A stretch of 64,000 nt of DNA from Antedon mediterranea (lineage: Eukaryota; Echinodermata; Crinoidea; Comatulida; Antedonidae): contig NC_092672.1 in assembly GCF_964355755.1 (NCBI RefSeq), positions 36,824,501 to 36,888,500 on the forward strand. Direction: 5' to 3'. Shown here piece by piece: positions 37,901 to 59,360 of the stretch. Under the pieces are notes generated by a model. That model searched no databases. It saw nothing but the letters and a program-made list of their open reading frames with translations, and had not been told where the DNA came from. A program made the position numbers and the translations under genes. Numbering within the stretch: the first letter of the stretch is position 1; every line of letters starts with the position of its first letter.

Positions 37901-39247
37901 TTCTCCATTATTATCAAATCACAAAAGTAATAAAAACAATTTGAATAGCGCACAATTGCAATAGAACTTTAACATGACAGAACATTCTGAATTTGTTTCC
38001 ATAATCTCTTCGGTAGTTTGATTGACATCGTCATTGTACACCCGTAACATATTGCTAATAATTTGAGAGAGAATATATACACAAAAAAAAAACCCTTTTT
38101 ATTTTACTGTATTAATTTAATAATATATCTATATAATATATCTATATAATATATAGGCCTTCTAAGAATATTTCGATTATTTCTGGGAACATCCACGTTG
38201 TATCAAAAAATAGATCTAACAAACACATTACTGAGGGTTTTTACTACGACTAACCAACCAACAATATAAATAAATACTAGGCGAAAAACGATCAGGTCCA
38301 GTGTGTTATAATTTACATTGAAATTTCCATTTTATTTCGTCTATTATGTAGACCTAACCGTACTATATCCTGTCATTGTAATAAATGAACTACTATATTA
38401 GCACTTTTTGCGTTCAATACTTTTTAGAGGCCGAGTTGACGGATGAGTTTTTGGCCGAGTTGACTTATGAGTTTTTGGCCGAGTTGACTTGAGGCCGAGT
38501 TGACTTGAGGCCGAGTTGACGTTAGGCCGAGTTGACTTGAGGCCGAGTTGACGTGAGGCCGAGTTGACTTGAGGCCGAGTTGACTTGGGGCCGACTTGAC
38601 GTGGGACCGACTTTGACGTGGGGCCGAGACGGTTAAGGGCCGAGTTGACCTGCACCCATAAGCTTGTACCAGGGCATGTAGGCAACAGTGCTCAATGCAA
38701 AGCAGAATAGAAATTGTCGAAGATGCTAGTTTTATGAGGAATATCTCTATCTTTTCAGTTATAACTAGAGTTGTTGACTTTCTCCAAGTATATGATGAGT
38801 TTTTCATCACAGAATCTTGATTATGATTTTCATTAATTAGTAGGTCTAAAACTTTACGAAATTTATTTTCTTTAGATGCGGTTTTACAAAAATTGGAAGC
38901 ATCAAATGTGTTTACGGTTGCTAGACGACAGGTCGAAGGTCAAGAAATGATATATCAATCAATGAAACTGACCAATGGTGTCTGGGTCTTGAGTGAACTG
39001 AAAATAAGTCCTGGTAATCCTGTAATTGGGGTAAGTTTATTGTTTTGTTGTTGAATTTAAATTTCTTGTCTGATTCTATCATCAATTTAACAATTTTATC
39101 CGATCAAAATTTACAAAATACAATTTTGGGTTGAAATCGTAACATATTAATAAATTTTTTTTTTTTTTGCAGTTATCAATTAAATCCCGTGCGATGGAAG
39201 TAGCATCCTTTGCTATGGAATCTTATAATACCATACTTCATCAATAA
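25996..39247 (+). CDS. AP2B1: AP-1/AP-2 adaptor complex beta subunit (beta-adaptin)
   Basis: Large subunit of the clathrin adaptor complexes at the plasma membrane and trans-Golgi/endosomes. Seventeen exons: 25996-26138, 26497-26632, 27178-27423, 27516-27637, 28058-28193, 28302-28456, 28858-29074, 29497-29675, 30052-30253, 30549-30811, 31009-31219, 31385-31507, 33169-33314, 33707-33921, 35903-35989, 38876-39030 and 39173-39247; 2811 nt, 936 residues (human AP2B1 937). The trunk (about 1-600) starts [19 protein letters not shown]. The Pro/Gln/Gly-rich hinge has a clathrin box LLSMD at 638-642. The ear (from about 712) has [24 protein letters not shown] and [16 protein letters not shown]. Intron 13 is GC-AG. 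Many invertebrates use one beta subunit for both complexes, so the AP1B1/AP2B1 split need not apply. AATAAA candidate at 39514. Confidence 0.98.
26153..26372. repeat. Two MITE copies in tandem, adaptin intron 1
   Basis: Copy 1 (26153-26289) ends AGTTTGATAGTGTAGATAAAG; copy 2 starts at once with AAGCTCTGTTTACACTATC and decays after CCTCCCATTTTT (26372). Confidence 0.75.
26659..27021. repeat. MITE with GGTTCCCACTAGAGACGCAA ends
   Basis: Imperfect terminal inverted repeats: TTGGTTCCCACTAGAGACGC at the left and GCATCTCTAGTGCGAACCAA at the right, 363 bp, non-coding. Located in adaptin intron 2. A shorter relative lies at 33465-33619. Confidence 0.75.
29762..29815 (+). mobile_element. SINE head fragment
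   Basis: GGAGCTGTAGCTTGGTAGG, AACATGCTTGCCCTCCAATC matches the tRNA-like head of the SINE at 7651-7863. The body is missing. Adaptin intron 8. Confidence 0.55.
30276..30455 (+). mobile_element. tRNA-derived SINE copy
   Basis: Head GTGGTTAACATGCTTGCC and GGTGTTCAAACC, body with CAAATGAGACTTATAAGCAT, end GTAATTGGCGAGTTG then TTGGATGCATATGAAAA. Same family as 7651-7863. Adaptin intron 9. Confidence 0.7.
31523..33072. repeat. MITE copy split by a 1.38-kb insertion
   Basis: Left half 31523-31588 (AAAGCTCTGTCTACACTATC to TGTGGACATG) and right half 32969-33072 (GACATGATGATGTCATATCA to TTTGATAGTGTAGACAGA) together make one full copy. The insertion duplicates GACATG. Confidence 0.85.
31589..32968. 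mobile_element. 1380-bp insertion of unknown class, 6-bp target duplication
   Basis: Flanked by GACATG on both sides (31583-31588 and 32969-32974). Near both ends are words such as CTTTAGCCATTTTGGC, TTGGCGAAAA and TTTCGCCAAATGGCTA, but no strong terminal inverted repeat. Short open frames near 31776-32136 have no recognisable product. Confidence 0.65.
33315..33706 (+). other. GC-AG intron 13 of beta-adaptin
   Basis: The exon ends AACAG and the intron begins GCAAGT, the usual context of functional GC donors; the acceptor is TATTGCAG. Protein phase and family similarity (LNKN-SFGLTP) fix the junction. Confidence 0.85.
33465..33619. repeat. Short copy of the GGTTCCCACTAG MITE
   Basis: Ends TTGGTTCCCACTAGGATGCA and TTGCGTCTCTAGTGAGAACC, with an internal repeat of ATCGCTGTTACGTCGCTGTT units. 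Adaptin intron 13. Confidence 0.65.
34736..34753 (+). other. Candidate 18-bp in-frame cassette micro-exon of beta-adaptin
   Basis: Inside intron 14 an acceptor CATATTTTAG and a donor GTAAGC bracket exactly 18 bp. Joined in phase between exons 14 and 15 it would add six residues (GKGDPN) to the ear domain directly after EDGNM, leaving the frame intact. The constitutive 936-residue reading skips it. A CU-rich tandem repeat starts a few bases downstream. Alternative splicing is inference. Confidence 0.5.
34763..34915 (+). repeat. Pyrimidine-rich tandem repeat after the micro-exon
   Basis: About seven 19-21-bp units of the type CTAATCCCTTCTTCTCTCC or CTTCACCTCTCCCTAAT. CU-rich tracts of this sort are the usual binding context of PTB-family splicing factors; a role here is inference. 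Confidence 0.7.
36212..36372. repeat. MITE copy in adaptin intron 15
   Basis: Ends AAAGCTCTGTCTACACTATC and TGTGTAGACAGAGTTTA, one internal unit, plus a small GGAACTATAAGTAGTTCC palindrome inserted in the right arm. Confidence 0.8.
36554..38657. mobile_element. Fold-back (MULE/FB-like) element, 2.1 kb, 9-bp target duplication
   Basis: ATAAGCTTG flanks both sides (36545-36553 and 38658-38666). Each arm starts with tandem CAACTCGGCC/TCAAGTCGGCC units (about 210-240 bp), followed by unique inverted sequence (AACTATGGAACGCAAAAAGTG through CTGGGCCTGATCGTTTTTCG) to about 36920 on the left and 38280 on the right. Arms of simple tandem units are typical of fold-back elements, and a 9-bp duplication is typical of Mutator-like elements. 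The interior is non-coding apart from a possible transposase remnant. Adaptin intron 15. Confidence 0.8.
37341..37475 (-). pseudogene. Possible N-terminal remnant of a transposase-like ORF
   Basis: A 44-residue frame begins [19 protein letters not shown] and continues [15 protein letters not shown]. An acidic start followed by such a helix is seen in some HARBI1-like proteins, but the piece is too short to assign. CGGAACAGG-type inverted words upstream may be the end of a second element nested in the fold-back element. Confidence 0.2.
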
Positions 39248-40011
39248 AAACTATAAAAAAAATTAAAGTCAACTTCAAATATAGTTTATCTTGCATTTAT
39301 TATAATGTTTATTTCCTTATACTGTACAAAGCTTTTATAATTGTAATACTGAAGTTGTGTCAGCATGTTTAATAATGTACATGTACTGTATCCTAAACAA
39401 TTAGTACAAATTCATAACAAACAAAATTAAACACCAAATATGGAATTATGATATTGATAACTTCCTTTTTTCATTCCTGTTAAAGTAATATATAACAATG
39501 TTATTGTTCTTAAAATAAAGCATGTAGTTTTATTATTATAATAATATAGCCTTGTGCTACCACACCTTATTTAAGCAACTCACGTAGTATCAAAGTTTAA
39601 AATACCGCATTGTATTTTGTAATGTTAATTATTCTCTATTGATAAACTGAACACAAAATTAACTATTTGAATATTAAGTTAATAATTATAAAGTTTTATA
39701 ATGTTTTGACTCATACGTAACATACAAATGTCATATTGGACAACAGTAAGCGATCAAAGTTTATAAAACAATGAAGAGGAATATAATAATTAATATATTG
39801 TTATATACATAAGCATGCTATTATTGCTATTATTTTTTATTATTTCATAATATTTTACTGTTATTAGTGTTGATAATATTAAATCATGCTGAAATTATTA
39901 AATGTAGTAAATGTGATAAAATGTAAAAGAGTAAACTTTGTTAATTGATGTCATTGCAACAAACAAATAAATAAATATACAATTAAAACTGTAACCATGT
40001 ACTGAGACTAT
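39248..40011 (+). other. Beta-adaptin 3' UTR and flank
   Basis: AT-rich sequence after the adaptin stop, with AATAAA candidates at 39243 and 39514. The stretch from about 39270 to 39980 is repeated in part at 49217-49490 and again from about 51993, marking the left end of the duplicated block. Confidence 0.6.
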
Positions 40012-40677
40012 CGCCCGTATTCTTAAACCGGACTTTAGTCGTAGTTCGTTCGAAGTTCGACTTGGAAAAGTCGTAGTTCGAGCTATTACTTCAAATTCGA
40101 TTCAAAAACGAAGTAGTCGAAGTTTGCAGTTCGACTTAACTGAAGTCGAGCTTTTAGTCGAGTTGCACACGTCTGGGTAACAAAGGCTATACATTGGCCA
40201 ATGACAAGAGAGTATTGAGGAGCAGACGAAATTTTGCGCATTGATATCACTTTCCATTTCTTACAACACTTTTTACGCATCAGGACTATATACATGAAAA
40301 ATAATTTTAATCGTTAATTATTAGAACAATATCAGTATTAATTTAACAGTGAAGTATATTTGATTAACAACAAATAAAATCTTAAAAATATATTTAGGAA
40401 CCATGGCGGTACGGTAACTTTTATATTTTCTAGGCCCCCAACAAACTATGATCGCCACGAACCACGCACTTCATAGCGTGACAAGAAAGCGCTAGGCCCC
40501 CTAAACATTCCATCGCGTGGTGAATTGCCGCATCTCCCATTGTCGCTATGGCGTGACGTAGCTCAAGTCGGACTTGCGCGAAGAAAATAATGTAATTTGT
40601 ATACAGTTGTAAATAAAGATGATTTTCATTATTATAATTTATACCAATGTATATTTAATTAAGCTAATATAAATATA

Positions 40678-41780
40678 CAGGGAACATTTTCGCCAGTGTA
40701 GCGTAGCAAAAAGCTATACAAAACAACCTTATTGCTACACATTTTGAAAATTGTGTAGCAAAAAATACAATACAAAACTATCGCCCGTATTCTTAAACCG
40801 GACTTTAGTCGTAGTTCGAGCTAAAACTAAAAAAATGACGTCATTTTAATTCATAAACCGAACTTCAACTAAATCACCGACTAAATCAGGCCAACCTCGA
40901 CTAAATCGAGACGGATTTTGATCGATTTTTTTAGTCCTGGAGGGGGCAGACTAAATGGTCGACTAAATGTTTTTTAAACGATGTTTATAAAAAACGTAAC
41001 AGTCATTGAGTTGTTATATTGGCCAGATATTGAAGAATGAAATATCTATATTTATATTAGCTTAATTAAATATACATTGGTATAAATTATAATAATGAAA
41101 ATCATCTTTATTTACAACTGTATACAAATTACATTATTTTCTTCGCGCAAGTCCGACTTGAGCTACGTCACGCCATAGCGACAATGGGAGATGCGGCAAT
41201 TCACCACGCGATGGAATGTTTAGGGGGCCTAGCGCTTTCTTGTCACGCTATGAAGTGCGTGGTTCGTGGCGATCATACTTTGTTGGGGACCTAGAAAATA
41301 TAAAAGTTACCGTACCGCCATGGTTCCTAAATATATTTTGAAGATTTTATTTGTTGTTAATCAAATATACTTCACTGTTAAATTAATACTGATATTGTTC
41401 TAATAATTAACGATTAAAATTATTTTTCATGTATATAGTCCTGATGCGTAAAAAGTGTTGTAAGAAATGGAAAGTGATATCAATGCGCAAAATTTCGTCT
41501 GCTCCTCAAATACTCTCTTGTCATTGGCCAATGTATTTGTTACCCAGACGACGTGTGCAACTCGACTAAAAGCTCGACTTCATTAAGTCGAACTGAAAAC
41601 TTCGACTACTTCGTTTTTGAATCGAATTTGAAGTAATAGCTCGAACTACGACTTTTCCAAGTCGAACTTCGAACTACGACTAAAGTCCGGTTTAAGAATA
41701 CGGGCGTATGTTTCTGGACTTAAAAATCAGTTTGATTAGCAATATTGTTAAACAACATTTTTAAATGAAAATTTTCCCTG
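40678..41780. mobile_element. Middle element of the nest (CAGGGAA ends)
   Basis: Ends CAGGGAACATTTTC and GAAAATTTTCCCTG, flanked by ATATA on both sides. Only about 178 bp are its own sequence (40678-40781 and 41707-41780); the rest is the inner element. Its left part is the sequence amplified as a tandem array at 10.9-11.3 kb. Confidence 0.75.
40782..41706. mobile_element. Inner TIR element of the nest, 925 bp, intact
   Basis: Same family as the outer element, reversed. Inverted ends CGCCCGTATTCTTAAACCGG, with TAT on both sides as a possible 3-bp target duplication. No coding capacity was found. Confidence 0.85.
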
Positions 41781-42705
41781 ATATAGATATTTCATTCTTC
41801 AATATCTGGCCAATATAACAACTCAATGACTGTTACGTTTTTTATAAACATCGTTTAAAAACCATTTAGTCGACCATTTAGTCTGCCCCCTCCAGGACTA
41901 AAAAAATCTATCAAAATCCGCGTCTCGATTTAGTCGAGGTTGGCCTGATTTAGTCGGTGATTTAGTTGAAGTTCGGTTTATGAATTAAAATGACGTCATT
42001 TTTTTAGTTTTAGCTCGAACTACGACCAAAGTCCGGTTTAAGAATACGGGCGTGAAACTGGGCTGAATTGCCATACATATTATCTTCTAAATGGGTTTCT
42101 TGCCACAAAAAATTGCTCATTCGTCTGTCCACAATGGCCGTGATTTCAGTTTTGTTTAAATTTAAAGGTACTGTAGGCCTATAGCAATTTTAAAGGCGAT
42201 TTGTCTAACATAAAAGCTAAAATTAAATACATGTGGGAAATAGGTAATAAGCCCATAGTTTAAGTTTGAATTGTACATGCATACTTTTTAATAACCATTT
42301 TACGCAATCACACAATTTGTATTTTACCCTAATATTATTATTAATTATTTAGTATTGAACGATATCTTTAAATTGGTACATTTAAGTAGACTCTAAATTG
42401 AGTCTCGCCTTGTCATTACATAACCACTAATCAAAATTTAGTTTCAAAAGCTAATAAATTTGTTTATGTAGTTTAGTTGCATTTCTTTCAAGTCATGAAA
42501 TATTCTGTAAACAATGCATTGTTTCTATTAATTTTCGAAAAGAAGTTTTTGAAATTCTTTACAGATAGGAAGCCAGAACAATAATGTACAATACTTTAAT
42601 TTTAAAAACTGCAATTAAATTTGTCAACTGATGCCCATCCACTTTAGAAAAACACATTTTAGACTTTTTATTAAATCCTGGCAGAATTTATGCCTTTTGT
42701 ACTAT

Positions 42706-45700
42706 TTAGGATGTTTGTACTGTAAAGTAAAATGGTTTTTCGTCACCATTAACGGCATCTGGTTGAGCATCAGGTGACATCTTAACACCCTTGTTAACCT
42801 CGAGAATGTTATAATCATCATCTCCAGCAAAGACATCAGTAAAAACAGACATTTCTGGATTGTCATCTTGGTCAGAGCTTTTCTCAAGAACATAATAGTC
42901 ACCCTCTGCAAGAACATTCTCTACGTCCAAACGAGACGTTTGAGCCGGACCAACGTCTCTCTCAAGGACATGATAGTGACCCTCTGCAAGAACATTCTCT
43001 ACGTCCAAACGAGACGTTTGAGCTGGACCAACGTCTTTACCGGAGTCCCTCTCAAGGACATGATAGCCACCATCTGCAAGAACATTTTCTACGGCCAAAC
43101 GAGACGTTTGAGCTGGACCAACGTCTTTACCAGAGTCCCTCTCAAGGACATGATAGCCACCCTCTGCAAGAACATTATCTACGTCCAAACGAGACGTTTG
43201 AGCTGGACCAACGTCTTTACCAGAGTCCCTCTCAAGGACATGATAGTCACCCTCTGCAAGAACATTCTCTACGTCCAAACGAGACGTTTGAGCTGGACCA
43301 ACGTCTTTACCGGAGTCTCTCTCAAGGACATGATAGCCACCATCTGCAAGAACATTTTCTTGTATCTCTACGCGGCGAGGTATTTGTCCCGATTTAAGAA
43401 GAGGGTCATCTGGATACGCGTATTCGTGATCATCAGCATTCGATCCAACAATCTGATTGGCTCTACTCGAAATATCGGTGCCATTGTTGTGAGAATTCTG
43501 GCTTGTTGAATTGCCAATATTGGCGACTCCTCTACCAAGAACATTGTAGTCGCCTCCGGCAAAAGATTTTTCAATATCTGTTGATACGCCGCGACGAGTT
43601 ATTGGACCTGATGCAAGTATCGGATCATCTGGATAAGCATATTCGTGGTCGTCTTCGTTAGTAAACTGCGCTCTACCATCATGCGTCTGATACCGAACTT
43701 CACCTGAAGCACGGGACGCAATGGCAACTGTTGCAGATGTGTGCTCAGTTCCTGGTGGCAATGAAGACACACTCGGTGGTTCTGGTGACAAGTGAACTAT
43801 AGCACTGGAGTATCCGCTGCTGATTACGTTTTTTGGTTGACGTTGTAGTCTCATGTATTCATGATTGGATTGATCTCCAGTGTCAGTGTGAATGTCTTGA
43901 TTCAAGTGTGGTTGTCGGTTTTGGTGTTCTGTTACTGAATTGTCATGCACTCTTTGTGAGTCATCTGTTACTTTAAAACAAATCAGATCTTATTAGACAT
44001 GATGTGTGTAATGAAAACTAAATATACAAATTTCGCCAAAATTATCAATAAATAAGACTACCTGTTTTTAATTTCACGTTCTCTTGAACTGTAGCAACTT
44101 TCGTTGTGTTTCTAAGGAGATATAATTATTTGGTGCTTTATCTTTATCGTCATCATTTATTTGAAAATTATCATTGAATATCGTCTTTAATTCTCTTTAA
44201 TGACATTGTCACATTATAACACTCTTTTCAGTACTATCACGATCATTATATTATTCCAATTGTAATGAAGTAGAAGTCTTCAAAACAGTCTACAGTGCAA
44301 ACAAGCATAGTTAGTTAGTCACTGAGAAATGTAATCACTACCATGATAACCAAAACTAAACATGATAACTAAAGTAAATTCAGATAATTAGCGCTACTTT
44401 CATAATATAATTGTACGAAGCCGACTGAATGATAATAACACGTTACTTTGTAACACATTCACAAATGTGTTCTTAATATATACTCAGTATTCAGTAAAAT
44501 TACGGCAGAAAAAAAACGTCAAAACAATTAATAGGCCTACATAATTATTAATTAAAAATGCACTTCTTGAACCTACCTTTGATTCTGTCTTCGATGGTAG
44601 AAATATATCGCTAACATAATCATAAGTAGTATTAGAACACAAATCGGTATGTATATCTGTGGATTCTGCTTTGTTGAATCTTGGAGTGACCCTCCAACAA
44701 AGTCCCTGGTTGTAGCATAGTTGGGAGTAGTATCCTGATAATTTGTTGAAGCGGGTGATGTCAATTGTGGGTCTTTTAGTGACTCTAAAAATAATTGTTA
44801 TTGAATAAAACAAAATAAATATACTCAATATAAAAACAATTAAGCCGCTAAAATGTTTTGAAATCGTTTACACTCAGTGTTGTAGCCTTATTGTAGGTCT
44901 ACTTACAGTTTTCTTGACTAGTTTCTAAAACTTCAGGCCTACAATCAGTTTACCGGTATTATACTTGCCGTAAGAAAGGAAACCCTCTTAACCCTTGTTG
45001 AGCCATGAAATGGGCAAAAAGTCAAATTTATGAAAACATGGCACTCTCAAATGTGCAAATCTGTAAACAATTCTTAATCCACTAATGTGCCGTTAAGTGT
45101 CCAAACGATCAGTTTTGACGTTAAATGTGCAAAGGAAATTCTACAAATGTGCAAATCATTTTGAAAAATCGAATAACAGAAGGAACATTTTATAGATGAA
45201 GAAGGCATGCATAGGGATAAATAATAATCCTTAGGCAAATGAAATGATGCGCGATTTAATATAGCGCAAAGATTTTGTTGCCCAATTTGAATTTGCACAA
45301 CAACCTTGTATAATTTGAAATTGCGCAAGGAAATCTTTGAGCAATTTCAATAACATTTTTTGTTAAACTTGCATTTTTTTTAGTATGCGTAAAAGATTTA
45401 TAAATGAGCTTTGGTTTGATCAAATACTGAAAATACATTGCGCTGTTTGAAATTTTCTGCGCAATATTAAGTTTTATTTTGATACAATTTGTGCACAGAA
45501 ATCCTTGAAATTTAGGCTACATTGATCAAATCTCGCATAACATAAACATGCACTTTAAATAAAATGTAGAAAATATAATGCACTCAGTTAGGTCTAATTA
45601 TATTTTGTAATTTCCTTTTAAATAAGAGAACATCTAAGGAACTTAAATTCCAACGGTATGGAAGTATTGCCATCTCCAGCAAGCAATACCACGTGTCAGT

Positions 45701-46669
45701 CCTGAATCCCCGGATCATTGTAAAAATGTTGTAAAACACAACACAGATTATTTCAGGCTGTATTACTATCAATGACGCCAGTGGCAATATATCGAAAACA
45801 TTATGTTAGAAAAACCCATGGATAGTTAGAATCATTTTTATTTTAACTAGTCCTATGACTAAACTTATTTTGGTTGAAGAAAATTACAGTATTTGCACAT
45901 TTGTAGAATTTCGTTTTCAAATCTAACGTCAAAACTGATCGTTTTGAGGGTGCAATGTTTGCACTAATTCAATCTTTCATTAGTGGAAAATTACTTCCAT
46001 TTATTGTCATTTGCATAAAAAATACATAGGCATAGGAATTATGTTTGCTCTATTTATTAGTATTCTTACGAAAAAAACACACATGCAGTTTTCCGCGGGA
46101 AAGGTGGTACCGCAGTTTGAACTTTCGTAAGAATACTAATAAACAGAGCATAATAAAATTTTACTACTATTAATATATTACTACTGTAGGTACAGACATT
46201 GTATTACAAACGAATTTGTATTACCATCAACACAAACTTTAGGCCACTCATGCCTTTCCGTTGAACTCTTGAGTACGCCTACATATATGCAATCAATGTC
46301 GTTTTGTAATATTATTATTCTACAGTTGTTTGATTGAAATCTGCAGTAGAATGTTTGTTTAACGGTCATTGCTTGATTAAATGTGCATTTTTTCATAATA
46401 CAGCAAGCAGGCCTACAGGTTGACGCAATACGTGTGTTCTCTGTTCCATTGAAAAATATGCACCAAATAGCTTTTTTATAAAATGTACATTCATTGTTAA
46501 TTTTAATTCCATTACAATGACAGATCAGCCAGGAGAACAGCCTACCATCTATACTTTGTTTACATGTTCTCATATTACCGTCGCTCAGATTTGTGGGGCC
46601 TGAAATTTCGTTAGGACTACAGCAATAGTCAGTACCTTCTACCACCAACAGACTCATCATCCAAACCAA
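42706..46669 (-). CDS. Receptor A: single-pass membrane protein with YxxL-repeat tail
   Basis: Not a family I can name. Four exons join in phase: 46669-46225 (short hydrophobic start, then a Cys-rich ectodomain of about 135 residues, e.g. GTDYCCSPNEIS and CRPACCIMKKC), 44784-44577 (Ser/Thr stalk, then membrane segment IYIPICVLILLMIMLAIYFY and HRRQ stop-transfer), 44111-44062, and 43970-42706 (421-residue cytoplasmic tail); 655 residues in all. The tail holds DHEYAYPDD twice, HEYMRL, DYNVLG, six ~30-residue units with a Y(H/Y)VLE core, and DDYNILE: nine YxxL/I motifs. These could be SH2 docking sites after phosphorylation or YxxPhi sorting signals. Exons 2-4 closely match receptor B; the ectodomain does not. 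The start is uncertain: an upstream signal-peptide exon is possible, as the frame is open to about 46715 without another ATG. Confidence 0.75.
42880..43356 (-). repeat. 90-bp coding minisatellite in receptor A tail (about six units)
   Basis: Each 30-residue unit reads ENVLAEGDYHVLERD then SGKDVGPAQTSRLDV. Units differ at a few sites (A/D E/D G/D/H); one has a 12-bp in-frame deletion (YHVLERDVGPAQ) and the last diverges into KSSDQDDNPE. The tyrosine is kept in every unit. Confidence 0.9.
45076..45990. repeat. Fold-back element, ~0.9 kb, in receptor A intron 1
   Basis: Arms of about 80-95 bp (45076-45155 and 45892-45985) share CGATCAGTTTTGACGTTA and GAAATTCTACAAATGTGCAAA in inverted orientation, around an AT-rich centre with no gene. 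Confidence 0.7.
46046..46150. repeat. Short fold-back (28-bp arms) in receptor A intron 1
   Basis: TATTAGTATTCTTACGAAA at 46055-46073 and its complement at 46123-46141, extended outwards by TGCTCT and AGAGCA with one mismatch. Confidence 0.75.
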
Positions 46670-49150
46670 CTGAATTTCCAGAACTAGGGTATAATGTATA
46701 CCGGTAATTAATTAGTCAAAGTATACACAGGACTGAGAATATACACATGTACAGTATTGTTAAAATATTTTAAAAATTGCTATACGTTAATTTATACCGA
46801 TTATACAATATCATCGGATTTTACAGTATTATAAATTGATAATAAAGTAAATAGACCTGGAATTTAACAACGGCCATGGTACCGTCATGCAATGGTCAAT
46901 GTCTACACTTATAATGAATGTTTTGCACAATGAACCACACGATTTCATATTTTAGTATAGTTATAGGCCCTATTCGCACTAAAGGCTACACCATCAAAAA
47001 TCTTATTTGCATTGCAATTTTTTTTAAATTTTGGATCCGCTTTATGTGCTTGTCCTACTTAATTGTAATTTAATTCCATTCTGTTGAATCTCAGAGCCTG
47101 GATTAATATCAAATTGTAATTGTTACTTACGTTTAAACATTATTTGAATTTTCCTATATATATTATTACCAGTATGACTCTTGTTGACTAATGAAAAAAT
47201 CGAACAATCATAACCTCACAGTCAGTATGTTTATACTTCAAGGAAAATCGTAAAAATGATATCAATTTCCTTAGTCATGATGTTCTGACTTTACTCTATT
47301 ACACTGGTATAGCTGCGTCAATTCATGTGTGTTCACTATATCAATAATTATATAAGGAAGCTTAAACGTAATTATTTCTACTCCCGCCCTATAGACAAAA
47401 AAAAATCTATTCTATATTTAGAAAATACAAATAGAATATAATATTCTCTTTCTAGGAAGGGAAATGTTAAATCACTGTTGTTATCGTGTTACCGTCTTAC
47501 ATACGTCCGTGTACTGTCAATGTACGACTGCTGCAAATTTACCTATGTTTTCACCCTTAGGTCTATGTTTCTTTCCGCAAGGTATCAAACAGGACTGGTA
47601 TTGTCCCGGAATGTGTGGAAATTCCACCTCAGTTTTATTTTTTCTAATTGAAGGTTGTTCCGAACAATGGCAATACAATTCTATATTCTGAAGCTAGGAT
47701 TCAACGAAAAAAAGACAAAATGGCCATGTCAGTTTATCATATGAATTCCTTTTAGCGAAAAAGGACAATTCAGAAAACAGCTATTTTGGCACTCGTCACA
47801 GATCAGTGCACACAGCCACAAATATTCTGCTGAGCAGTGTACTGTTTAGACTATTCCATTCTCAAAATAGGTAAATTGTTTATAAGGTCAATTGAATTGA
47901 TTTAAGATTCAAGAAATTTCAACCTCGGTTTCTTAAATAGTTATTACATTATGTTCAACTGCGGTTTTACGAAAATCTATTATCATCTCTTTGGTTTTAG
48001 TAATATTAAGTATTAAGTTCATATTCTCACACCAATTAACAAATGAACAAATTGCAAATAAACAGGTAGGCCAGTTTCAATTCAAACTTTATAGAAACCA
48101 CCACATAATATATATGTATAAAAAGGTCATATATATAGTCCAAATCACTGTTAAATAGTCCCTTAGATATATTAATTCTAACTTTACTAAGAAGAAACAT
48201 AATTATTGCCTACTTATGTTCATTATATTTCCCTTTGATAAAATGGAATAACCCGCTACCAATCCAGCCTAGCCTAGCCTATGTTAGACAATGGCCGATG
48301 CGAAATTTGTTGTATACACTTAAAAGGGCTAGTAGCTTATAGACTATTTAGGTGGTATTATTGCGTATTTTCTCTAAAAAAATTACACAGAATTATTTTA
48401 TATGACTTTAACTACAATATTGATTAACAAATTGTAATGAAAATAAGCAGAATATACTCACATTTGGGTATCAAACACAGGCCAATAGTACACATAAGAG
48501 AATTTCGCGCGGAATTTCCCAAAAATATGCTGTTTAGTAATCAAATTTTCGCGGGTCTCACCATAATCCAATCAAAAAAAATATTACATGGTTAGAAAGC
48601 CACTGTATAGGAGACTACGATGTTAAAAGAACTAAGTTTTAAGAGGACGCTGTTCAAAGTTGTGGCAATTTCAAAACTATACATCAGCGAAAAACGCGAA
48701 TTTCACACAGGAATCGGCTGTTTTTTGGCCGGGACAGGGTATGTTTAATGTAAATTCGCGATTTCCAGCTATCAAAAATTTATTTTTTAAATACATAGTC
48801 AGAAAGTACAATACCTTAGCTTCAACATAGTATGAGAACTAATGTATACTATGCGAGATAAAGATTTTACAAGTATAAATGTGAAAAAAAGTAGTTTCCT
48901 CCATGCACTTAGAATAGGAACAATATCGTGCGGAAGACGTTTTTGGATTAGTGCACCAAAGGAATCCATATGATTTTGTTTATTAGTTGCAGCGGGTACT
49001 GCACCAACAGGATTGTAATTGTTTGCAACCACCGTGGAGTAACTTTGCGTCAAAGTGTTGAGTAAGCCTAATTAGTCCGATGTTTGCCGTACTGTCGTTT
49101 TTTTTCACAAGTATTCTCAATTTACTTAGTATAGAATACAAATTACGTCA
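46670..49150. other. Gene-free stretch between receptor A and the duplicated block
   Basis: AT-rich. A Cys-containing plus-strand frame at 47464-47691 and a minus-strand frame at 48799-49053 (ends SFGALIQKRLPHDIVPILSA-like) were examined and match nothing I know. The interval may include promoter or non-coding exons of receptor A. Confidence 0.4.
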
Positions 49151-49490
49151 GAGTGGTATTACAAAAATTGGAAACACCAACTAGTTGCTAGACGACAGGT
49201 CGAAGGTCAAGAACTTCAAAGATAGCTTCTTGCATATATTATTATTTTTAATGTTTTATTTCCTTATAAAAAGCTTTTACAATTGTAATACTGAAGTTGT
49301 GTCAGCATGTTTAATAACAACATGTATCTTAAACAAATAGTATAAATCCATAACAAACAAAAGTAAACACCAAATACGGAATCCTATTTTAAGAAACTCA
49401 TTCACTTAGTCTTAAAGTTTTAAAATACCACATTGTATTTTGTAATGTTAATTATTCTCTATTGATAAACTGAACACGAAATTAACTATT
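49151..49490 (+). pseudogene. Broken copy of the beta-adaptin 3' end
   Basis: ATTACAAAAATTGGAAACAC and GTTGCTAGACGACAGGTCGA match adaptin exon 16 (38876 onward), with an internal deletion. After CAAGAA the copy jumps to CTTCAAAGATAG, matching 3' UTR sequence at about 39276, so the rest of exon 16, intron 16 and exon 17 (about 330 bp) are lost. Similarity continues through AATACTGAAGTTGTGTCAGC to AATTAACTATT, where a P-like element interrupts it. Confidence 0.85.
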
Positions 49491-49501
49491 GTAGTTAATA
49501 A

Positions 49502-51956
49502 GACACTACCCGCGTTTACGCGTAACACTTTAGAAGCGTCAAATTATAGTGCGCCCCCTCGCTTAAACAAGTAACGAACTTTTGCGTGACGATGATCGCA
49601 GTATTCTTTAGAAAATGGGATTGAGGAGTCGCGCCAAAGTTTGTATGGTTAAGAAACAATGAATGAAAAGAGAAAAAGTGGAGGGATGTACTGTGCTGCA
49701 ATTAATTGTAAAAGCAATTCAAAGGCCAACCCAGAACTTAAGCTTTACAATTTTCCCAAAGACAAGAACAGGTAAATTTATGTAATTAAATAAGTAGCCT
49801 ACATCTTAACATATGCTATGTAGGCCTAGGGACTAATCTTACTTTACTGTATTCAATTTATACATATATTAATAAACTAGGCTAGGTAGGCCTATTATTA
49901 ATAATTATTATTTAAACGTATGAAATGATTATAGTATCATTATTAGGCTACTACTAGTACATATAGTTGGTTATATTACTTATCCTTTAAAATTTAGTAC
50001 CCTTAACAAACAATTTTTAAAACTTTCAATTCAAGAAACATTTATTGACCAAATATATATCATTACAATTGTTGGCATATAAGTAAAAATTTGGTCGAAA
50101 GACTACAATTACAATTGGCATGTCGCTGTAGGCCTAGTCCCTCTTTTTACATTATACAAATAATAATAATAATAATACTTAATATAAACAAATTGTGATC
50201 TTGATTATTTCATGCTTTCCGTCTCATGGTTAATATTTGCTTTCTGTCTCATGGTTATTTGATTTCGTTTAATTTAACTAGCCGTTACATACATTACAGT
50301 ATATTAACGCATGAAATGATTATTATTATCATTATTAGGCTAGGACATTAGTTATAATAACAGTGAAATTACACTATTTGTATTGTTCCCTTGTTATATT
50401 ACTTATCCGTTGAGTAGCCCTAACAAACAATTTTTAATTGAATCTTATACTTAATCTTTATGAAATTCAACCGTTAGTTAGTGGTTTTAGGTTAGGCTTA
50501 AGTATTTGATTTTCAAAATTTGAAAATCAATTAGCATGCACGTAGACGTCCTATAATTACGTAAACGTTAATTATGATAAAGCAAAAACTCACTAGACAA
50601 TTATTAATTTACAGGTGTGCAAAATGGGCCCAGAACACACGACGCGCGGATTTGAGAACGAAACCAAGTTCCTATTTACACCGTAATTGCCACTTGTGCA
50701 ATATTCATTTCGAAGAATCTCAAATACTGATGGTCACAAAAAGATTGTATGGAATGCATTCCCTACAATATTTGATGTCCCAAATCCACCACACCAAGTA
50801 GTTAATGTCCTATCTATCTGTGAAAAGATTTTTGTTTCAAACTTTAACAAATACTTACATACATCAAACATCAGCAGAAAAATAAAGTTAAAAATCGCTA
50901 CCATGTTACATAGATTTGGTATGAAGTTGAATCTTTGTTCACCAGCAATTGAAACATTGCTAATTGAAACGTACGTAAACCTACGCATATTCTTCAACAG
51001 AGACATAATCAGTGATAAGAAGAAGAGTAAAAAATTAATTAAAGTATCACATTTATGAGGTCTGGTAAAGTTGTAAGAGGTCTGTACGCGCTCCGGTCTG
51101 TGCATTATTGGCTAGAAATGATTATCATTACGACGGTCTGGTATGATGATTGAATAATTGTAAATATGATGATTTTATTTCAATGTTTCTACATTTTTTA
51201 TATTTCCTCTGGGTGGCCCGTGCATCATTTCGGAATAGTTATTGAGTTAATTTTAAACTGAGACTACTATAACATAACTTATTGTTATCTCAGGTTTTAA
51301 ATCAATTATAATAATAAATGAATGTCATGGCGAATGATGGGTACCGGTATGCCTAGTATGAATTGTCTCAGAATTGACTATCATAATCTGTTTCATATCA
51401 TGCCTGTAGGCTTAAGCCTATGATTGTTTATAAATATATTCCGAAAAACTACTGCAATAAAATAGTCGAAGTAGTGATTTTAAAAAGTGACTCTTGTTCT
51501 TTTTTAATTGTTTTTAACACACTATTTGACTAATATATTTTCCTAATCTGTACTGTTTTGCTGCTGGATGAAAAGGAAGAACATATCAAGAACAAAAACG
51601 GAATACGATGCGCTTAGTGTTGTTAATACCAGAGGGACCGACTCGCATAAATAAGTAGTAGTGATGTGAGTGATGATTACTCCTAGATGATGATTTTGAG
51701 GATGATGATAAACATTCAATAATAACAACAATATTCAGTAATTAAAACAAATAGATATACAAAGTACAGGAAATAAGTCTATCATTATAATTTAATCGCA
51801 CATTACCACAATTATTGTGATGAAAAAAATTGAGTATTCAGTTACAATACAGTAGACATATCTGATCCATAAATCTACTTGTTTGAGCGAGAGGGCGCCC
51901 TATAAAATGAGCTCCATGTGTGTTACATGAATTGCACGTAAAATTCCGAGAGTGTC
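49502..51956. mobile_element. P-element-like insertion with THAP gene
   Basis: This 2.45-kb stretch is absent from the matching place of the parental block (about 39660). Diverged inverted ends: GACACT with CGCGTTTACGCGTAA at the left, complement of GACACTCTCGG with TTTTACGTGCAA at the right, then TCAAATTATAGTGCGCCCCC versus its inverted partner near 51887-51915 (GAGGGCGCCCTATAAAATGA). It carries a THAP-domain frame, the N-terminal DNA-binding domain of P-type transposases. The target duplication is unclear and the exact borders may be off by about 30 bp. Confidence 0.5.
49686..51058 (+). pseudogene. THAP-domain protein, frameshifted
   Basis: Exon 49686-49771 encodes MYCAAINCKSNSKANPELK and YNFPKDKNR; after intron 49772-50614, exon 2 continues with CAKWAQNTRRADLR and CNIHFEESQ. 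This supplies the C-x4-C and C-x2-H zinc ligands of a THAP domain. Near 50722 the frame breaks; the next frame carries the expected THAP end (NAFPTIFDVPNPP) and runs to a stop at 51058. The remaining C-terminus (about 85 residues) is much shorter than a full P-type transposase, so internal loss is likely. Confidence 0.65.
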
Positions 51957-52417
51957 CCATCTTTAGTATATAAGATCTTTGATAATAATACAAGTTTTAC
52001 AATGTTTTCGCACACATTCATAACATTACAAATGGCATATTGGACAACAATCAATGGTCAAAGTTTATAAAACAATGAAGAGGAATCAAATATATTGTTT
52101 AATGTTTAATTTTAATTTTTTATTTGATTATGTTTTTCCTTTGTAATGTATTATATGATGAAATAATAAAAAAAAAATACATTGTTAACATTATATAGAC
52201 CTATACACAAGCATGCTATTATTTCTTATTATTTCCTAATATTTTACAATTATTATTATTGTATAAAATGATTGAATGTAGTAAATGTGATAAAATGTGA
52301 AAGAAAGATAGAAGAAAATAAATTTAATTTAAATATATATTAACCTGAAACTTAACTGGGCTGGAATACCATACAAAATTCTACTAAATGGGTTTCTTGT
52401 ATACTATACTTCGGTTG

Positions 52418-52470
52418 GTTGGTTGGTCGGATGGTTGGATAGTCGGATGGTCGGTCGGTCGGTCGGTAAA
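52418..52470. repeat. GGTTGGTCGGAT-type simple repeat
   Basis: Variants of GGTTGGTTGGTCGGATGGTT followed by (GGTC)n. Non-coding, downstream of receptor B; the matching place near receptor A lacks it. Confidence 0.8.
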
Positions 52471-53006
52471 CACTAACTCAAATTTGGCCTTGTTTTTTTT
52501 TTAATTTAAAGATACTGTATAGCAATTTTAAAGGCGAATTGTCTATCATGAATGCTAAAATGGAAAAATTAAGATAATAATACCTAGTTTAAGCATGAAA
52601 CGCATTCGTTAATAACCATTTTACACAATCACACAATTTGTATTTTCCCCAATATCATTTAATTCTTTAGTATTGAATGATATCTTTAAATGGGTACATT
52701 TAAGTAGACTCTTTTAAGTAGTCTCGCCTTGTCATTACATAACCACTAATTAAAATTTAGTTTCAAAAGCTAATAAATTTGTTTATGTAGTATTAAGGTT
52801 TAGTTGCATTTATTTCAAGAAAGAAGTTTTAGAAATTATTTACAGATAGGAAGCTAGAACAATAATGCTTTTTTTTAAACACAAGTATAAATAATATAAG
52901 TACAATACTTTAATTTTTTTTTAAACTAGATTAAAATTGATGGACTGATGCCCATCAACTTTAAAAGAAACAATTTAGACTTTTTGTTCAATCCTGGCTT
53001 AGGTCT

Positions 53007-55620
53007 CTAAGATGTTTGTACAGTAAAGTAAAATGGTTTTTCGTCACCATTAACGGCATCTGGTTGAGCATCAGATGACATTTTTCCACCCTTGTTAACC
53101 TCGAGAAGGTTATAATCATCGTCTCCAGCAAAGACATCGTTTGATGATAGAGGCATTGGTGGTGTATTACCATCAGTACAAACAGACATATCTGGATTGT
53201 CATCTTGGTCAGAGCTTTTCTCAAGGACATGATAGTCACCCTCTGCAAGAACGTTCTCTACGGCCAAACGAGACGTTTGAGCTGGACCAACGTCTTTACC
53301 AGAGTCCCTCTCAAGGACATGATAGTCACCATCTGCAAGAACATTCTCTACGGCCAAACGAGACGTTTGAACCGGATAAACGTCTTTATCGGAGTCCCTC
53401 TCAAGGACATGATAGCCACCCTCTGCAAGAACATTCTCTTGTATCTCTAGGCGGCGAGATATTTTACCTGACTTAAGAAGAGGGTCATCTGGATATGCGT
53501 ATTCGTGATCATCATCAGTCGATCCAACAATCTGATTGGCTCTACTCGAAATATCGGTGCCACTCGTACGAGCATTCTGGCTTGTTGAATTGCCAATATT
53601 GGCGACTCCTCTCTCAAGAACATTGAAGTCGCCTCTGGTAAAAGACTCTTCGATATCTGTTGATACGCCGCGACGGGTTGTTGGACCTGACGCAAGTATT
53701 GGATCATCTGGATACGCGTATTCGTGATCGTCTTCGTTAATAAACTGCGCTCTACCATCATGTGTCTGATACCGAACTTCACCCGAAGCACAGGACGCAA
53801 TGGCAACTGTTGCAGATGTGTGCTCAATTCCTGGTGGCAATGAAGACACACTCGGTGGTTCTGGTGACAAGTGAACTATAGCACTGGAGTATCCGCTGCT
53901 GATGACGTTTTTTGGTTGTCGTTGTAGTCTCATGTATTCATGATTGGATTGATCTCCAGTGTCAGTGTGAATGTCTTGATTCAAGTGTTGTTGTCGGTTT
54001 TGGTGTTCTGTCACAGAGTTATCTTGAATTCTTTGTGAGTCATCAGTAACTTTAAACAAAATATGGATATATCGTTAGACACATGGGGTTCTGTTTAGGT
54101 GTAGGTGATTACCTAAGTTAATTTGCCAAGGCAAACTAGTTCCAGAAAAATGACATAGCCTACCTGTTTTTAATCCAACGTTCTCTGGTATCGTATTAAT
54201 TTTCGTTAAGGTTCTAAAGAGAAAATAATGTTTCTTTTATCATCATCATCATTATTAAGAATATGATCATGTCGTCATCGTCAACTTATCTTAAGTCATT
54301 GGCGGTTCCGTTTCATTATATTGTAATCATCAACCTAATTTTGTATTACAGTACCATCACCGATCATGATTATCATTGTTGTCATTGTCAAGATTGAATG
54401 AAGCCCAAATACCTATCGAGATCTCCCAGAGTGTACCGTAATAAGTGTATATTGCAGACACTATTGTATCAACAAATTTTAATTAATTAATGATTTTACA
54501 TTGATTAAAATGTGCGCTGCTTGACCTACCCATTTCTCTGTCTTCGGTGGTAAAAACATATCGCTACTATAATCAACATTATTACAATACATATACAAAT
54601 CAGTATAATAATGTATTTCTGCTTGGTTGAAAGCCTATTACTCGTCTTCGGAAGTGTAGACCCATCATGAGCAGCATCAGGGGTAGTAGTAGTACTAACA
54701 GGACTATTACTAGCAGGAGTAGTAGTACTAGCAGGAGTAGTAGTACTAACAGGACTATTACTAGCAGGAGTAGTAGTACTAGCAGGAGTAGTAGTACTAA
54801 CAGGACTATTACTAGCAGGAGTAGTAGTACTAGCAGGAGTAGTAGTACTAACAGGACTATTACTAGCAGGAGTAGTAGTACTAGCAGGAGTAGTAGTACT
54901 AACAGGACTATTACTAGCAGGAGTAGTAGTACTAGCAGGAGTAGTAGTACTAACAGGAGTAGTAGTACTAACAGGACTAGTACTAGCAGGAGTAGTAGAA
55001 CTAGCAGGAGTAGTAGTACTAGCAGGAGTAGTAGTACTAGCAGGAGTAGTAGAACTAGCAGGAGTAGTAGTACTAGCAGGAGTAGTAGTACTAGCAGGAG
55101 TAGTAGTACTAACAGGAGAGAGATATGAGATGTCCTGTTTATTTCCAGCTATAGTGTACGTAGAGTCAGTAATAACAGTAGGCCTAATGGTTGTTGAAGT
55201 AGCTTTTGTAGCAGTTTGTGTAATGTTATTGGCATTGCATCGAGCATCTATTATATTTTTAAGACATTGTGTGCTTAATAGTTCTTTCTCAATCATGGTA
55301 GTACAGGTTTTGCAAATCTTCACTTCTTTACAATTGTCTTTTATCATACAAATTGAGTCTAGTAATTCCAAGCATTTCGTCTTATTATTTCCAATGCCTG
55401 GTGGATTAAGGTTATTATAAGTAGGCATATAGCCTTCTGATGTTGATTCTTGCAAACATTCTAGGAGATTATTGTCAAGACAAGCACGTGGTGGTGGTGG
55501 TGGTGGGAGTAAACAGGAGGGTGGATTGGTAACCCCATTAACTTCTTTACCAGTTGCATATTTGATCAAGAAAGTGAATGTCCAAACAAGTTGGCATACA
55601 CAAATTATTTTTATATTCAT
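53007..55620 (-). CDS. Receptor B: mucin-stalk membrane protein with YxxL-repeat tail
   Basis: Tandem paralogue of receptor A. Three exons join in phase: 55620-54530, 54213-54164 and 54049-53007; 727 residues. Order: signal peptide (MNIKIICVCQLVWTFTFLIK), Pro run, ectodomain with ten Cys (e.g. KICKTCTTMIEKELL), Thr/Ser/Pro mucin stalk of SPVSTTTPASTTTPASN units, membrane segment YIIILICICIVIMLIIVAIC, HRRQ, then a 348-residue-frame tail. The tail keeps HEYMRL, two DHEYAYPDD, three Y-H-V-L units and DDYNLLE; the site matching DYNVLG in A is DFNVLE, so that tyrosine is lost. An in-frame ATG at 55686 would add 22 charged residues before the signal peptide; 55620 fits secretion better. Function unknown; architecture suggests a cell-surface signalling or adhesion receptor. 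Confidence 0.78.
53219..53440 (-). repeat. 90-bp coding minisatellite in receptor B tail (three units)
   Basis: Three 30-residue units of the same type as in receptor A (GGYHVLERDSDKD, GDYHVLERDSGKD, GDYHVLEKSSDQD). Half as many as in the paralogue. Confidence 0.9.
54683..55112 (-). repeat. Coding repeats of the receptor B mucin stalk
   Basis: Near-identical 51-bp units (SPVSTTTPASTTTPASN), nested on an 18-bp STTTPA pattern, make about 140 residues with Thr/Ser at most positions, suited to dense O-glycosylation. Receptor A has only a short Ser/Thr stalk. Confidence 0.9.
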
Positions 55621-56465: not shown

Positions 56466-57300
56466 TGTAACAGGGTAACAGGTATGCTTATACCCAAATA
56501 CTTGAATGATTTATCTGCTGAATCTGACTTGAATCTGAGAAACCTTGTGGGACCCATTAAAGTAAAAGCTGGAATGATAAGTGACCATGCTATAAATAGA
56601 TGAGTCACCTCATCCAAGTGGCGGGAAAATGGTCATGAATATTTAGTGTATAATGTTTCAGTATGGGTCAGTTCATAAATGGACAAGGGATTTTGTTAAT
56701 TGATTTGCATTTTTAATAGTTTCTTTTTTTTGTATAACCGAACTTTAAATTGATAATTACATGTGTGTGACTCGAGTTACAATACAAACGGTCTGTAAAC
56801 TACGAAATAACGTTATGGTAAATGTATATACCATCGGTTAAAAATTGTAATAGTACCCAACTGGGAATGGATGACACTTACTAGTGCCTAGCCCAAAGTG
56901 AAGGTTTTCATCTCCTTCCGACTGGTTACTAGGTAAGCATCTATATTTTTATCTCTCTTAATTTTAGAATTGTTTTACTATAGTTAATATAGTTGATTAG
57001 TTATTTGATGTTATACTATAGTTAATATAGTTGATTAGTTAATCGATTGTTATACTAGACACAACGCAATAGCAGCCTATACAATACTGTCGTTAATGAT
57101 ACGATCACTGATGTTATCTTAAATAGTAACACTGTTGTTGTTATCTCCTTCCGACTGATTACTAGCTTCAATAAAAGAATATAACTTTTCCAAACCAAGA
57201 ACTGTCTCTGTGGATGATTTTATTGTGTTTGTGGCAATGCTGCAGCTCCTGAAAATACTACGCGATAAAGCTACGACGCTAGTAGTACGAACCTGTTACA
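56466..57300 (+). repeat. 5' LTR
   Basis: 835 bp, TGTAACAGG to CCTGTTACA; contains the 42-bp internal duplication near 56980-57045. Confidence 0.88.
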
Positions 57301-57302
57301 TT

Positions 57303-57320
57303 TGGTGCCGTGACTAGGAT
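57303..57320 (+). other. Primer-binding site, tRNA-His type
   Basis: TGGTGCCGTGACTAGGAT sits two bases after the LTR. It matches the complement of the 3' end of animal tRNA-His (TGGTGCCGTGACCAGGAT) except at one position, judged from memory of that tRNA. Confidence 0.6.
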
Positions 57321-57414
57321 TTGCTGTTCAGCCAGGAAGGGATCACTCTCAAGAAAGACTACGATAAGTGCTGATTAGTCTTTTCTTAAGTTTTAACCAG
57401 CCATTTGGAAAGAT

Positions 57415-57759
57415 GTGGATCTTACTCAACCTTACGTCCCTGAAGCTGCAGTACCAGAATCTGCTAATACAATATCCATAGAACAACAAGAAACACCATC
57501 TATCAACCCTGCTTCTGTCCATGCATCTGTGGAACCGTCAGAAACTTCTCCTTCAACTGAGCATGATATCACTCCCGTCGCAGTCGTCATGGATCATACT
57601 GATGATGATAACTCCTCAGGAGAAACACGTTCAGAACCAACCTTAAGTCTCCAACGTTCGAAACGTGTAATTAAACCGCCAGACCGATACGGCTTTATTT
57701 CTAAGTGGCTCTGGGGAACCCCTGCACTAACATCCCATGTGGGTTGTTTAGATGTTTGA
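57415..57759 (+). CDS. Short residual ORF of the LTR element
   Basis: 114 residues, acidic and Ser/Thr/Pro-rich, ending with RSKRVIKPPDRYGF, a basic motif of the kind often seen near the C-terminus of LTR-element polyproteins. Probably the remnant of a much larger polyprotein; whether it makes a product is unknown. Confidence 0.45.
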   Translation: MDLTQPYVPEAAVPESANTISIEQQETPSINPASVHASVEPSETSPSTEHDITPVAVVMDHTDDDNSSGETRSEPTLSLQRSKRVIKPPDRYGFISKWLWGTPALTSHVGCLDV

Positions 57760-58330
57760 TTGTTTAAACTGTATTAATTTTGCTTGATACTTAACTTGTT
57801 TTTTATATAATTATGTCTGAGAGAAGACAATTTTACTTGATTTTAATTTTAATCTCAATAGTTTAATTTGTTACCTTTATTGTATACTGTATCTTTTGTA
57901 TGATCATGTTTTTTTAACATACTTGTTTGCCATGTGTATGGCTTGTGTTATGTTGGTACGTCACCTTGTGTTTGGTGGGATTGAACTTTCGAGTAGTAAT
58001 CGCAGGATTTCGAGAAACTTCTGAAGTGTAAACGGGCACTTCTGTACACCGACTATTGTGGGGATGGCCACCCTTCAATAGTAATCCATTTGGATAAATT
58101 GTTATTGGTTGTTTCTAATAATTCTGTATAACTTGCTCTCATTGGTTCAATCAGGTACAGGTATACTGTTGTGATATAACAGTTTCATTTTTTTTATAAA
58201 TGCCATTTAGTTAAGTTTTTTTATGTAATTCCCTATGATGTCATTTTCATTGTATAAATCGTGACTTGTAAATGTACCGGTGTATTTAGGTTTAGGTTAA
58301 TGAATTTGTATATAACTGATATTTAGCAGA

Positions 58331-58345
58331 TAAATGGGGGGTGAG
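58331..58345 (+). other. Polypurine tract
   Basis: TAAATGGGGGGTGAG lies directly before the 3' LTR, where plus-strand priming would occur. Confidence 0.6.
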
Positions 58346-59138
58346 TGTAACAGGGTAACAGGTATGCTTATACCCAAATACTTGAATGATTTATCTGCTG
58401 AATCTGACTTGAATCTGAGAAACCTTGTGGGACCCATTAAAGTAAAAGCTGGAATGATAAGTGACCATGCTATAAATAGATGAGTCACCTCATCCAAGTG
58501 GCGGGAAAATGGTCATGAATATTTAGTGTATAATGTTTCAGTATGGGTCAGTTCATAAATGGACAAGGGATTTTGTTAATTGATTTGCATTTTTAATAGT
58601 TTCTTTTTTGTATAACCGAACTTTAAATTGATAATTACATGTGTATGACTCGAGTTGCAATACAATCGTTCTGTAAACTATGAAATAACGTTATGGTAAA
58701 TGTATATACCATCGGTTAAAAATTGTCATAGTACCCAACTGGGAATGGATGACACTTACTAGTGCCTAGCCCAAAGTGAAGGTTTTCATCTCCTTCCGAC
58801 TGGTTACTAGGTAAGCATCTATATTTTTATCTCTCTTAATTTTAGAATTGTTTTACTATAGTTAATATAGTTGATTAGTTATTTGATTGAATATACTAGA
58901 CACAACGCAATAGTAGCCTATACTGTCGTTAATGATACGATCACTGATGTTATCTTAAATAGTAACACTGTTTTTGTTATATCTCCTTCCGACTGGTTAC
59001 TAGCTTCAATAAAAGAATTTAATTTTTCCAAACCAAGAACTGTCTCTGTGGATGATTTTATTGTGTTTGTGCCAATGCTGCAGCTCCTGAAAATACTACG
59101 CGATAAAGCTACGACGCTAGTAGTACGAACCTGTTACA
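58346..59138 (+). repeat. 3' LTR
   Basis: 793 bp, same ends as the 5' LTR. It abuts the gypsy remnant 48 bp before that element's primer-binding-like site. Confidence 0.88.
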
Positions 59139-59360
59139 TATACTCATCTCAACGTACTTATTAATTTGTCTACGACGATACACGACACTGGCGACGAGGA
59201 TGGGATCACATTTACATAGAGAAACGGAAGTATAATAATATTATAAAACTAGGCTAGCAGTTTTTGATTTTCCAACAACGGCAACAGTAACCAAGGAACC
59301 ACACAGGCTAATAGTAATAACGATTCTGAGCGCCCTGAACGTACAGAGCGAAGCGCGGTA

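Follow-up and report, generated by a model that had tools for sequence, protein, structure and literature searches.

Two neighbouring predicted receptor genes in Antedon mediterranea with a common tyrosine-repeat tail, unlike ectodomains and a probable history of two ages

The DNA analysed here, referred to as the window, is a 64,000-nt stretch from the crinoid Antedon mediterranea (contig C3:36824501-36888500). Feature coordinates are window positions. On C1 of the genome, Pfam bindin is matched above its cut-off (E 2.3e-28, with one stop in the frame), in keeping with an echinoderm, as bindin is known only from echinoderms; COX1 is not matched. The window carries a tandem pair of genes, A and B, both on the minus strand and both predicted to encode type I, single-pass receptors, with lengths of 663 aa for A (a tentative first exon is counted) and 727 aa for B. 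The firmest result is a history of two ages, which is very probable as judged from the DNA alignments. The simplest account would be an old tandem pair of which one gene later received the 3' half of the other, and the common cytoplasmic tail would then be largely a result of this later homogenisation. We give about an even chance to the proposal that A and B are paralogous type I recognition receptors whose tail evolves in concert and docks SH2 proteins. An initial annotation placed a tandem receptor pair at this location, which is correct, and the interpretation as a whole is partly supported.

Two ages of the gene pair

The tail exons, each including the stop codon, are at positions 42706–43970 in A (minus strand, from an open frame) and 53007–54049 in B (minus strand). 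They are preceded by juxtamembrane exons of 50 nt at 44062–44111 (A, minus) and 54164–54213 (B, minus). Length of the 50-nt exon and the phases of both exons are identical in the two genes. Further upstream, A has a stalk and transmembrane (TM) exon at 44577–44784 (minus), the TM segment of which is homologous to that of B. The protein similarity of the TM and 50-nt exons has a score of 110, reached in 0/2000 shuffles, so the common membrane anchor proposed in the initial annotation is upheld.

The young homology block consists of the tail exon and the 3' flank. It spans 38880–43983 in A, with about 3.8 kb of flank (seven aligning pieces that total about 1.2 kb), and 49155–54062 in B, as determined by collinear blastn matches of 75–93%. 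The collinear similarity is broken by insertions that are not shared and extends to about 13 bp beyond the tail exon acceptor, on its upstream side. Identity in the 3' flank is 392 of 465 aligned bases (84%). The introns are near the shuffle level: 27/69 bases are identical between the 50-nt and tail exons and 148/302 between the TM and 50-nt exons, where shuffle means are 45% and 46%. The difference from the flank has a Fisher p of 1e-14 for the first intron and 3e-25 for the second. No DNA similarity is found by blastn 5' of the TM segment other than two chance 18-mers (E 0.73). Over its 335 aligned codons, the tail exon has a synonymous divergence (dS) of 0.175. The values for the 50-nt exon and the TM segment are 0.30 and 0.52, and come from 12 and 17 synonymous sites, respectively. 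The contrast of the tail with the TM and 50-nt exons pooled gives p 0.02 with rounded counts and is weak alone. With a young tail and flank on one side, and an older TM and 50-nt exon with unalignable introns on the other, the DNA on either side of the tail acceptor therefore seems to be of different ages.

The intron and flank identities vary with the alignment, and this counts against the proposed history. The flank is 75% identical by blastn (549 columns), 79% and 82% in two other cuts and 84% in the cut tested. The intron between the 50-nt and tail exons is 61% identical over 91 bases with its splice ends and 39% over 69 bases without them. The intron between the TM and 50-nt exons gives 50% or 49% in two cuts, and it is mainly this longer intron that carries the two-age reading.

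In the history proposed here, an old duplication would have left the common membrane anchor, the 50-nt juxtamembrane exon and the splice phases. Later the 3' half of one copy, i.e., the tail exon and about 3.8 kb downstream, would have been copied onto the other. The copying could have gone in either direction, by gene conversion, by unequal crossing-over or through a local duplication.

Two segments of the flanks are present in one copy only. An inverted-repeat (foldback-like) pair at 40012–42052, with arms that are 97–98% identical, is within the 3' flank of A and is absent from that of B. A segment of about 2.5 kb at 49490–51979 (frames 49681–49770 and 50565–50801, plus strand) is missing from the equivalent position of the A copy. 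It has a weak match to a THAP domain (E 6.8e-05, 24.0 bits compared with a cut-off of 23.9), the remainder of which seems, by eye, to run on in another frame. This segment is possibly an insertion that postdates the copying event.

Gene models and ectodomains

The gene models are manual predictions from the DNA, based on open frames, on the match to the splice consensus and on phase. The first coding exon of B (54530–55620, minus) encodes the signal peptide, the Cys-rich domain, the Ser/Thr/Pro stalk and the TM segment. In A the ectodomain has its own phase 1-1 exon at 46225–46683 (minus), which encodes the remainder of the signal peptide and a domain of 136 residues and was delimited by its open frame and splice phases. 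Phase 1-1 exons are of the classical exon-shuffling type. The exon structure is thus common in the 3' part only, and the common structure claimed in the initial annotation holds for the 50-nt and tail exons and fails for the 5' exons. A tentative first coding exon of 10 nt (47131–47140, minus; M-F-K and 1 nt) completes the signal peptide of A together with the ectodomain exon. It is one of five candidates with the correct phase and a donor matching at least 7/9 consensus places. Its donor, AAC/GTAAGT, matches 8/9, as does that of a rival candidate at 48462–48495.

The A ectodomain exon could have been modelled wrongly, being a chance frame or a part of another gene, and the difference between the heads would then be partly an annotation error. 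Its donor, gtaata, is weak (6/9 consensus places by manual count), and the exon is absent from the list of a codon-usage scan that required donors of at least 7/9. All exons that the scan listed scored negative, and the scan is therefore without power. The open frame (176 codons, stop to stop) is equalled or exceeded in 3/1000 simulations of the 8.2-kb stretch under a first-order Markov model, and another candidate phase 1-1 exon containing Cys is present at 47543–47681. However, the phases fit on both sides, the 136 residues include 15 Cys, and with the tentative first exon the frame begins with an in-frame signal peptide that resembles that of B. An error of this kind is considered quite improbable. 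The candidate at 47543–47681 (minus, CHC...IPCG) is between A and B, and one copy of it was found in the genome. As an extra exon of A it was rejected, in that it would place the signal-like hydrophobic segment of A in the middle of the protein, and it is assigned to neither gene.

The head of A is a 136-residue domain with two N-glycosylation sequons in addition to its 15 Cys, in close agreement with the Cys-rich domain of about 135 residues described initially. The head of B has 108 residues, 10 Cys and one sequon. After it come a linker and 163 mucin-like residues with 75% S+T+P, which bears out the description of a different Cys-rich domain on a mucin stalk. Most of this stalk is encoded by a minisatellite with a 51/18-bp unit (54685–55118, minus). 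The short stalk of A holds a TSPAS..TTP stretch that resembles the repeat of B. A Pfam search at E up to 5 gives no match for the B head and only Psg1 for the head-to-TM part of A (E 0.01, 16.1 bits, below the cut-off of 30.1), and no immunoglobulin (Ig) or sushi domain is matched in either receptor. Matches of the TM and tail region to eight Pfam families (best E 0.01, none over its own cut-off) were taken as chance. A PDB sequence search at E up to 10 gives 0 matches for each head. The two ectodomains are unrecognised, as first suggested, and neither the Pfam nor the PDB sequence search assigns the receptors to a well-described family. Single-sequence AlphaFold2 models have a mean predicted local distance difference test (pLDDT) value of 37.0 for the A head and 47.5 for the B head, too low for a fold search.

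The heads compared without signal peptides are at chance level, with 579/2000 shuffles as good, and they were rejected as diverged homologs. When signal peptides are included, 34/500 shuffles are as good. The signal peptides themselves, using the tentative exon of A, are alike to a degree equalled in only 6/2000 shuffles. This last result would fit a single whole-gene tandem duplication, after which the ectodomains and introns diverged fast, perhaps under positive selection, with no later copying of the 3' half. Both ectodomains are flanked by similar signal peptides and homologous TM segments, the two stalks have the resemblance noted above, and the synonymous contrast taken alone is weak. 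However, 84% identity in the 3' flank compared with introns near shuffle level is difficult to reconcile with one event, as is the chance-level similarity of the heads. A single whole-gene duplication is already disfavoured, and we regard it as improbable. The constant tail with unlike ectodomains that was described initially stands.

Motifs and repeats of the cytoplasmic tail

The tail of A has nine YxxL motifs, with a shuffle mean of 1.1 and nine reached in 0/5000 shuffles. The tail of B has five, a number reached in 5/5000 shuffles. Six of the motifs in A and three in B are in one repeat, and the counts are therefore not independent. The repeat is a 90-bp tandem array in A with six [ED]NVLA..YxVLE units (42882–43360, minus), and the tail exon of B has three ENVLA..YxVLE units. 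The nine units keep N-V-L-A-x-G-x-Y-x-V-L-E, with G, D or H preceding the tyrosine; they were picked by a pattern that requires most of the conserved residues, and translations reveal no further unit in the arrays. Counted from the juxtamembrane sequence FYHRRQ, there are 18 tyrosines in A and 14 in B.

An acidic residue is present within three places upstream of every YxxL motif (9/9 in A and 5/5 in B). The triplets that precede the tyrosine are NHE, GGD, DGG, EGD, EGG, EGH and DDD in A, and NHE, EGG, DGD, EGD and DDD in B. An acidic triad is found only in DDDYNIL/DDDYNLL. Copies of the motif also occur beyond the array: both genes have DDDYNIL/DDDYNLL, and A has in addition GDYNVL, the tyrosine of which is Phe in B. 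The two tails also have in common two DDHEYAYPDDP elements, and other tail elements are HEYMRL and a C-terminal YFTV. The non-synonymous divergence (dN) of the tail exon is 0.048, which gives a dN/dS ratio (omega) of 0.28. Judged by these codons, the tail shows purifying constraint between the copies.

Proposed function of the tail

In the proposed model, the two Cys-rich heads would bind different ligands and feed one output. Clustering of the receptors would lead Src-family kinases to phosphorylate the repeated [DE]-G-x-Y-x-V-L-E tyrosines. The phosphotyrosines would together form a multivalent docking array for SH2 proteins, and the most likely partner would be of the Syk type or similar. 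In this the tails would act like those of receptors with a hemITAM, i.e., half of an immunoreceptor tyrosine-based activation motif (ITAM). The YxxL copy number, nine in A and five in B, would tune signal strength. Signalling by SH2 docking at these tails is plausible, with the arguments for and against it in near balance. Coelomocyte immunity, self/non-self contact or the surfaces of eggs and sperm are possible settings, and the data do not choose among them.

Several properties of the tail weigh against this model. The hemITAM consensus, DGYxxL, is matched by 0/9 YxxL motifs in A and 0/5 in B, with no D-G directly before the tyrosine. ITAMs, i.e., two YxxL/I motifs that are 6–12 residues apart, number 0 in A and 0 in B, and the period of the repeat units is 30 residues. 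The immunoreceptor tyrosine-based inhibitory motif, [S/I/V/L]xYxx[I/V/L] with T also allowed in first place, is present at 0/18 tyrosines in A and 0/14 in B. Measured from the membrane-proximal FYHRRQ, about 60 residues precede the first YxxL and about 235 precede the array. Omega is 0.53 within the repeats compared with 0.24 for the tail exon outside them. The Y-x-V-L-E codons show a silent variation of one change across the nine units, so low that recent homogenisation of repeats alone could explain the identity of the units, and constraint on the YxVLE motif is unproven because silent variation is so scarce.

The last points bear on the possibility that the tail is disordered and its YxxL array a neutral minisatellite, with function residing elsewhere in the tail (HEYMRL, DDHEYAYPDDP and the C-terminal YFTV). 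A 90-bp repeat with six units in one gene and three in the other, the higher omega within the repeats and a motif nearly without silent variation would all be expected of it. However, every unit is in frame, and the motif is also present beyond the array in both genes. A neutral array is judged unlikely. Alternatively, the tails may serve endocytosis or sorting, A and B then being scavenger or cargo receptors that differ in their binding heads. Sorting signals recognised by AP-2 adaptors are defined as YxxPhi, and all nine YxxL motifs of A and five of B fit this definition, as does YFTV. One such signal normally suffices and is positioned near the membrane, whereas the array here is far from the membrane with acidic residues alongside. 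An endocytic role is likewise doubtful.

A more specific form of the SH2-docking model is tentative and itself rather unlikely. A and B would be an undescribed echinoderm self/non-self or immune pair, an independent counterpart of fester and uncle fester, in which gene conversion keeps a multivalent hemITAM-like tail common, the heads are free to diverge or be exchanged, and repeat number sets signal strength. If so, the pair would be a second, separate case of recognition receptors made by copying the signalling half while the binding half differs. It would offer a compact, testable system in which two orphan Cys-rich heads are joined to the one tail and the number of docking sites forms a natural series. 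To our knowledge, few single-pass receptors with tyrosine motifs have been described in echinoderms.

Search for further family members

The initial annotation named more tandem members with common tails as support; the tail search and the exact pattern matches return A and B alone. No third family member was found in the 354 Mb of genome searched by tail, motif patterns or heads, which counts against the proposed recognition receptors. The search scores only the best candidates, and distant members may therefore be missed. The tail search gives seven matches, every one in A or B, and the pattern G-x-Y-[HN]-V-L-E is found at seven places, all in A or B (control 0). The DNA pattern for DHEYAYPDDx with up to three mismatches occurs at 14 places, of which four are exact and all in A or B and ten have 2–3 mismatches; the reversed control gives two. 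Seven of the ten inexact places, at three sites outside A and B, were read and show no tail-like frame. The frames at these sites are one of 168 aa with EHEYTYPDG before a hydrophobic stretch, one of 61 aa with EHEYADPDD and a simple Asp/Tyr repeat.

The open frame of 168 aa is at C1:11908700-11910800; its EHEYTYPDG stretch is acidic, the hydrophobic segment after it is TM-like, and the likeness is of the motif only. No second copy of either ectodomain is found in the genome beyond weak matches at E above 1. These matches, for the B ectodomain on C9 (E 1.16 and 3.28) and for the A ectodomain on C2 (E 7.74), were taken as chance. A description of this receptor pair was not met in the literature searched, and no claim of being unpublished is made.

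Other features of the window

A pair of repeats that are 93% identical (56466–57301 and 58346–59139) is close upstream of B. Frames of a Ty3/gypsy-like element, judged by eye from open reading frames, are present at about 59.2–63.5 kb (feature span 56466–63483). On the other side of the pair, a beta-adaptin-like exon is found at 28799–29215 (plus; Adaptin_N, E 8.5e-20). The sequence at 33693–34085 (plus) looks by eye like a later exon of the same gene and has no Pfam adaptin match. A tandem repeat at 10910–11341 carries a repeated open frame.

Comparison with known systems

The construction of the pair is similar to that of fester and uncle fester in the fuhc locus of Botryllus schlosseri. According to passages in PMC12065747 and PMC3549757, uncle fester represents a duplicate of part of fester, its exons 4–9 being nearly identical to fester exons 6–11 and its exons 1–3 unrelated. 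As in A and B, 3' exons are alike, 5' ectodomain exons are unrelated, and the architecture is equivalent at one locus. In the same passages, fester combines Ig and sushi domains with three TM spans, and its tail is short and has no known signalling motif (PMC12065747, PMC3549757). In contrast, A and B have one TM segment, their Cys-rich heads are unrecognised and their tyrosine-bearing tails long, and they are from a different phylum.

The Fester co-receptors (FcoRs) of Botryllus are described in PMC12065747 as type I receptors; their tails are long and can include a hemITAM as well as core YxxI/L/V motifs. A and B are likewise type I, with long tails and YxxL-type motifs. In the same account, the FcoRs differ in having Ig/sushi ectodomains and 53 loci so far, whereas A and B are two genes without such domains by Pfam.

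The hemITAM receptors CLEC-2, Dectin-1 and DNGR-1 are C-type lectin-like receptors of type II, and A and B are without a lectin domain by Pfam. Two papers treat the hemITAM: one gives its consensus, DGYxxL, and what the triacidic stretch does (PMC3819593), and the other deals with the glycine adjacent to the tyrosine and its role (PMC12669754). The similarity to A and B, on this evidence, is in single YxxL modules with acidic residues upstream, several with a glycine nearby (PMC3819593, PMC12669754). The lectin-like receptors as presented there have one N-terminal DGYxxL-like module, whereas A and B have up to nine on the C-terminal side, most of them after [DE]Gx. PMC10253181 discusses the Syk and SHARK kinases of invertebrates, and PMC11593052 lists Syk for a sea-star egg transcriptome. 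By the sequence tests made, the pair is a fester/uncle fester-like construction with a hemITAM-like tail and a member of neither family.

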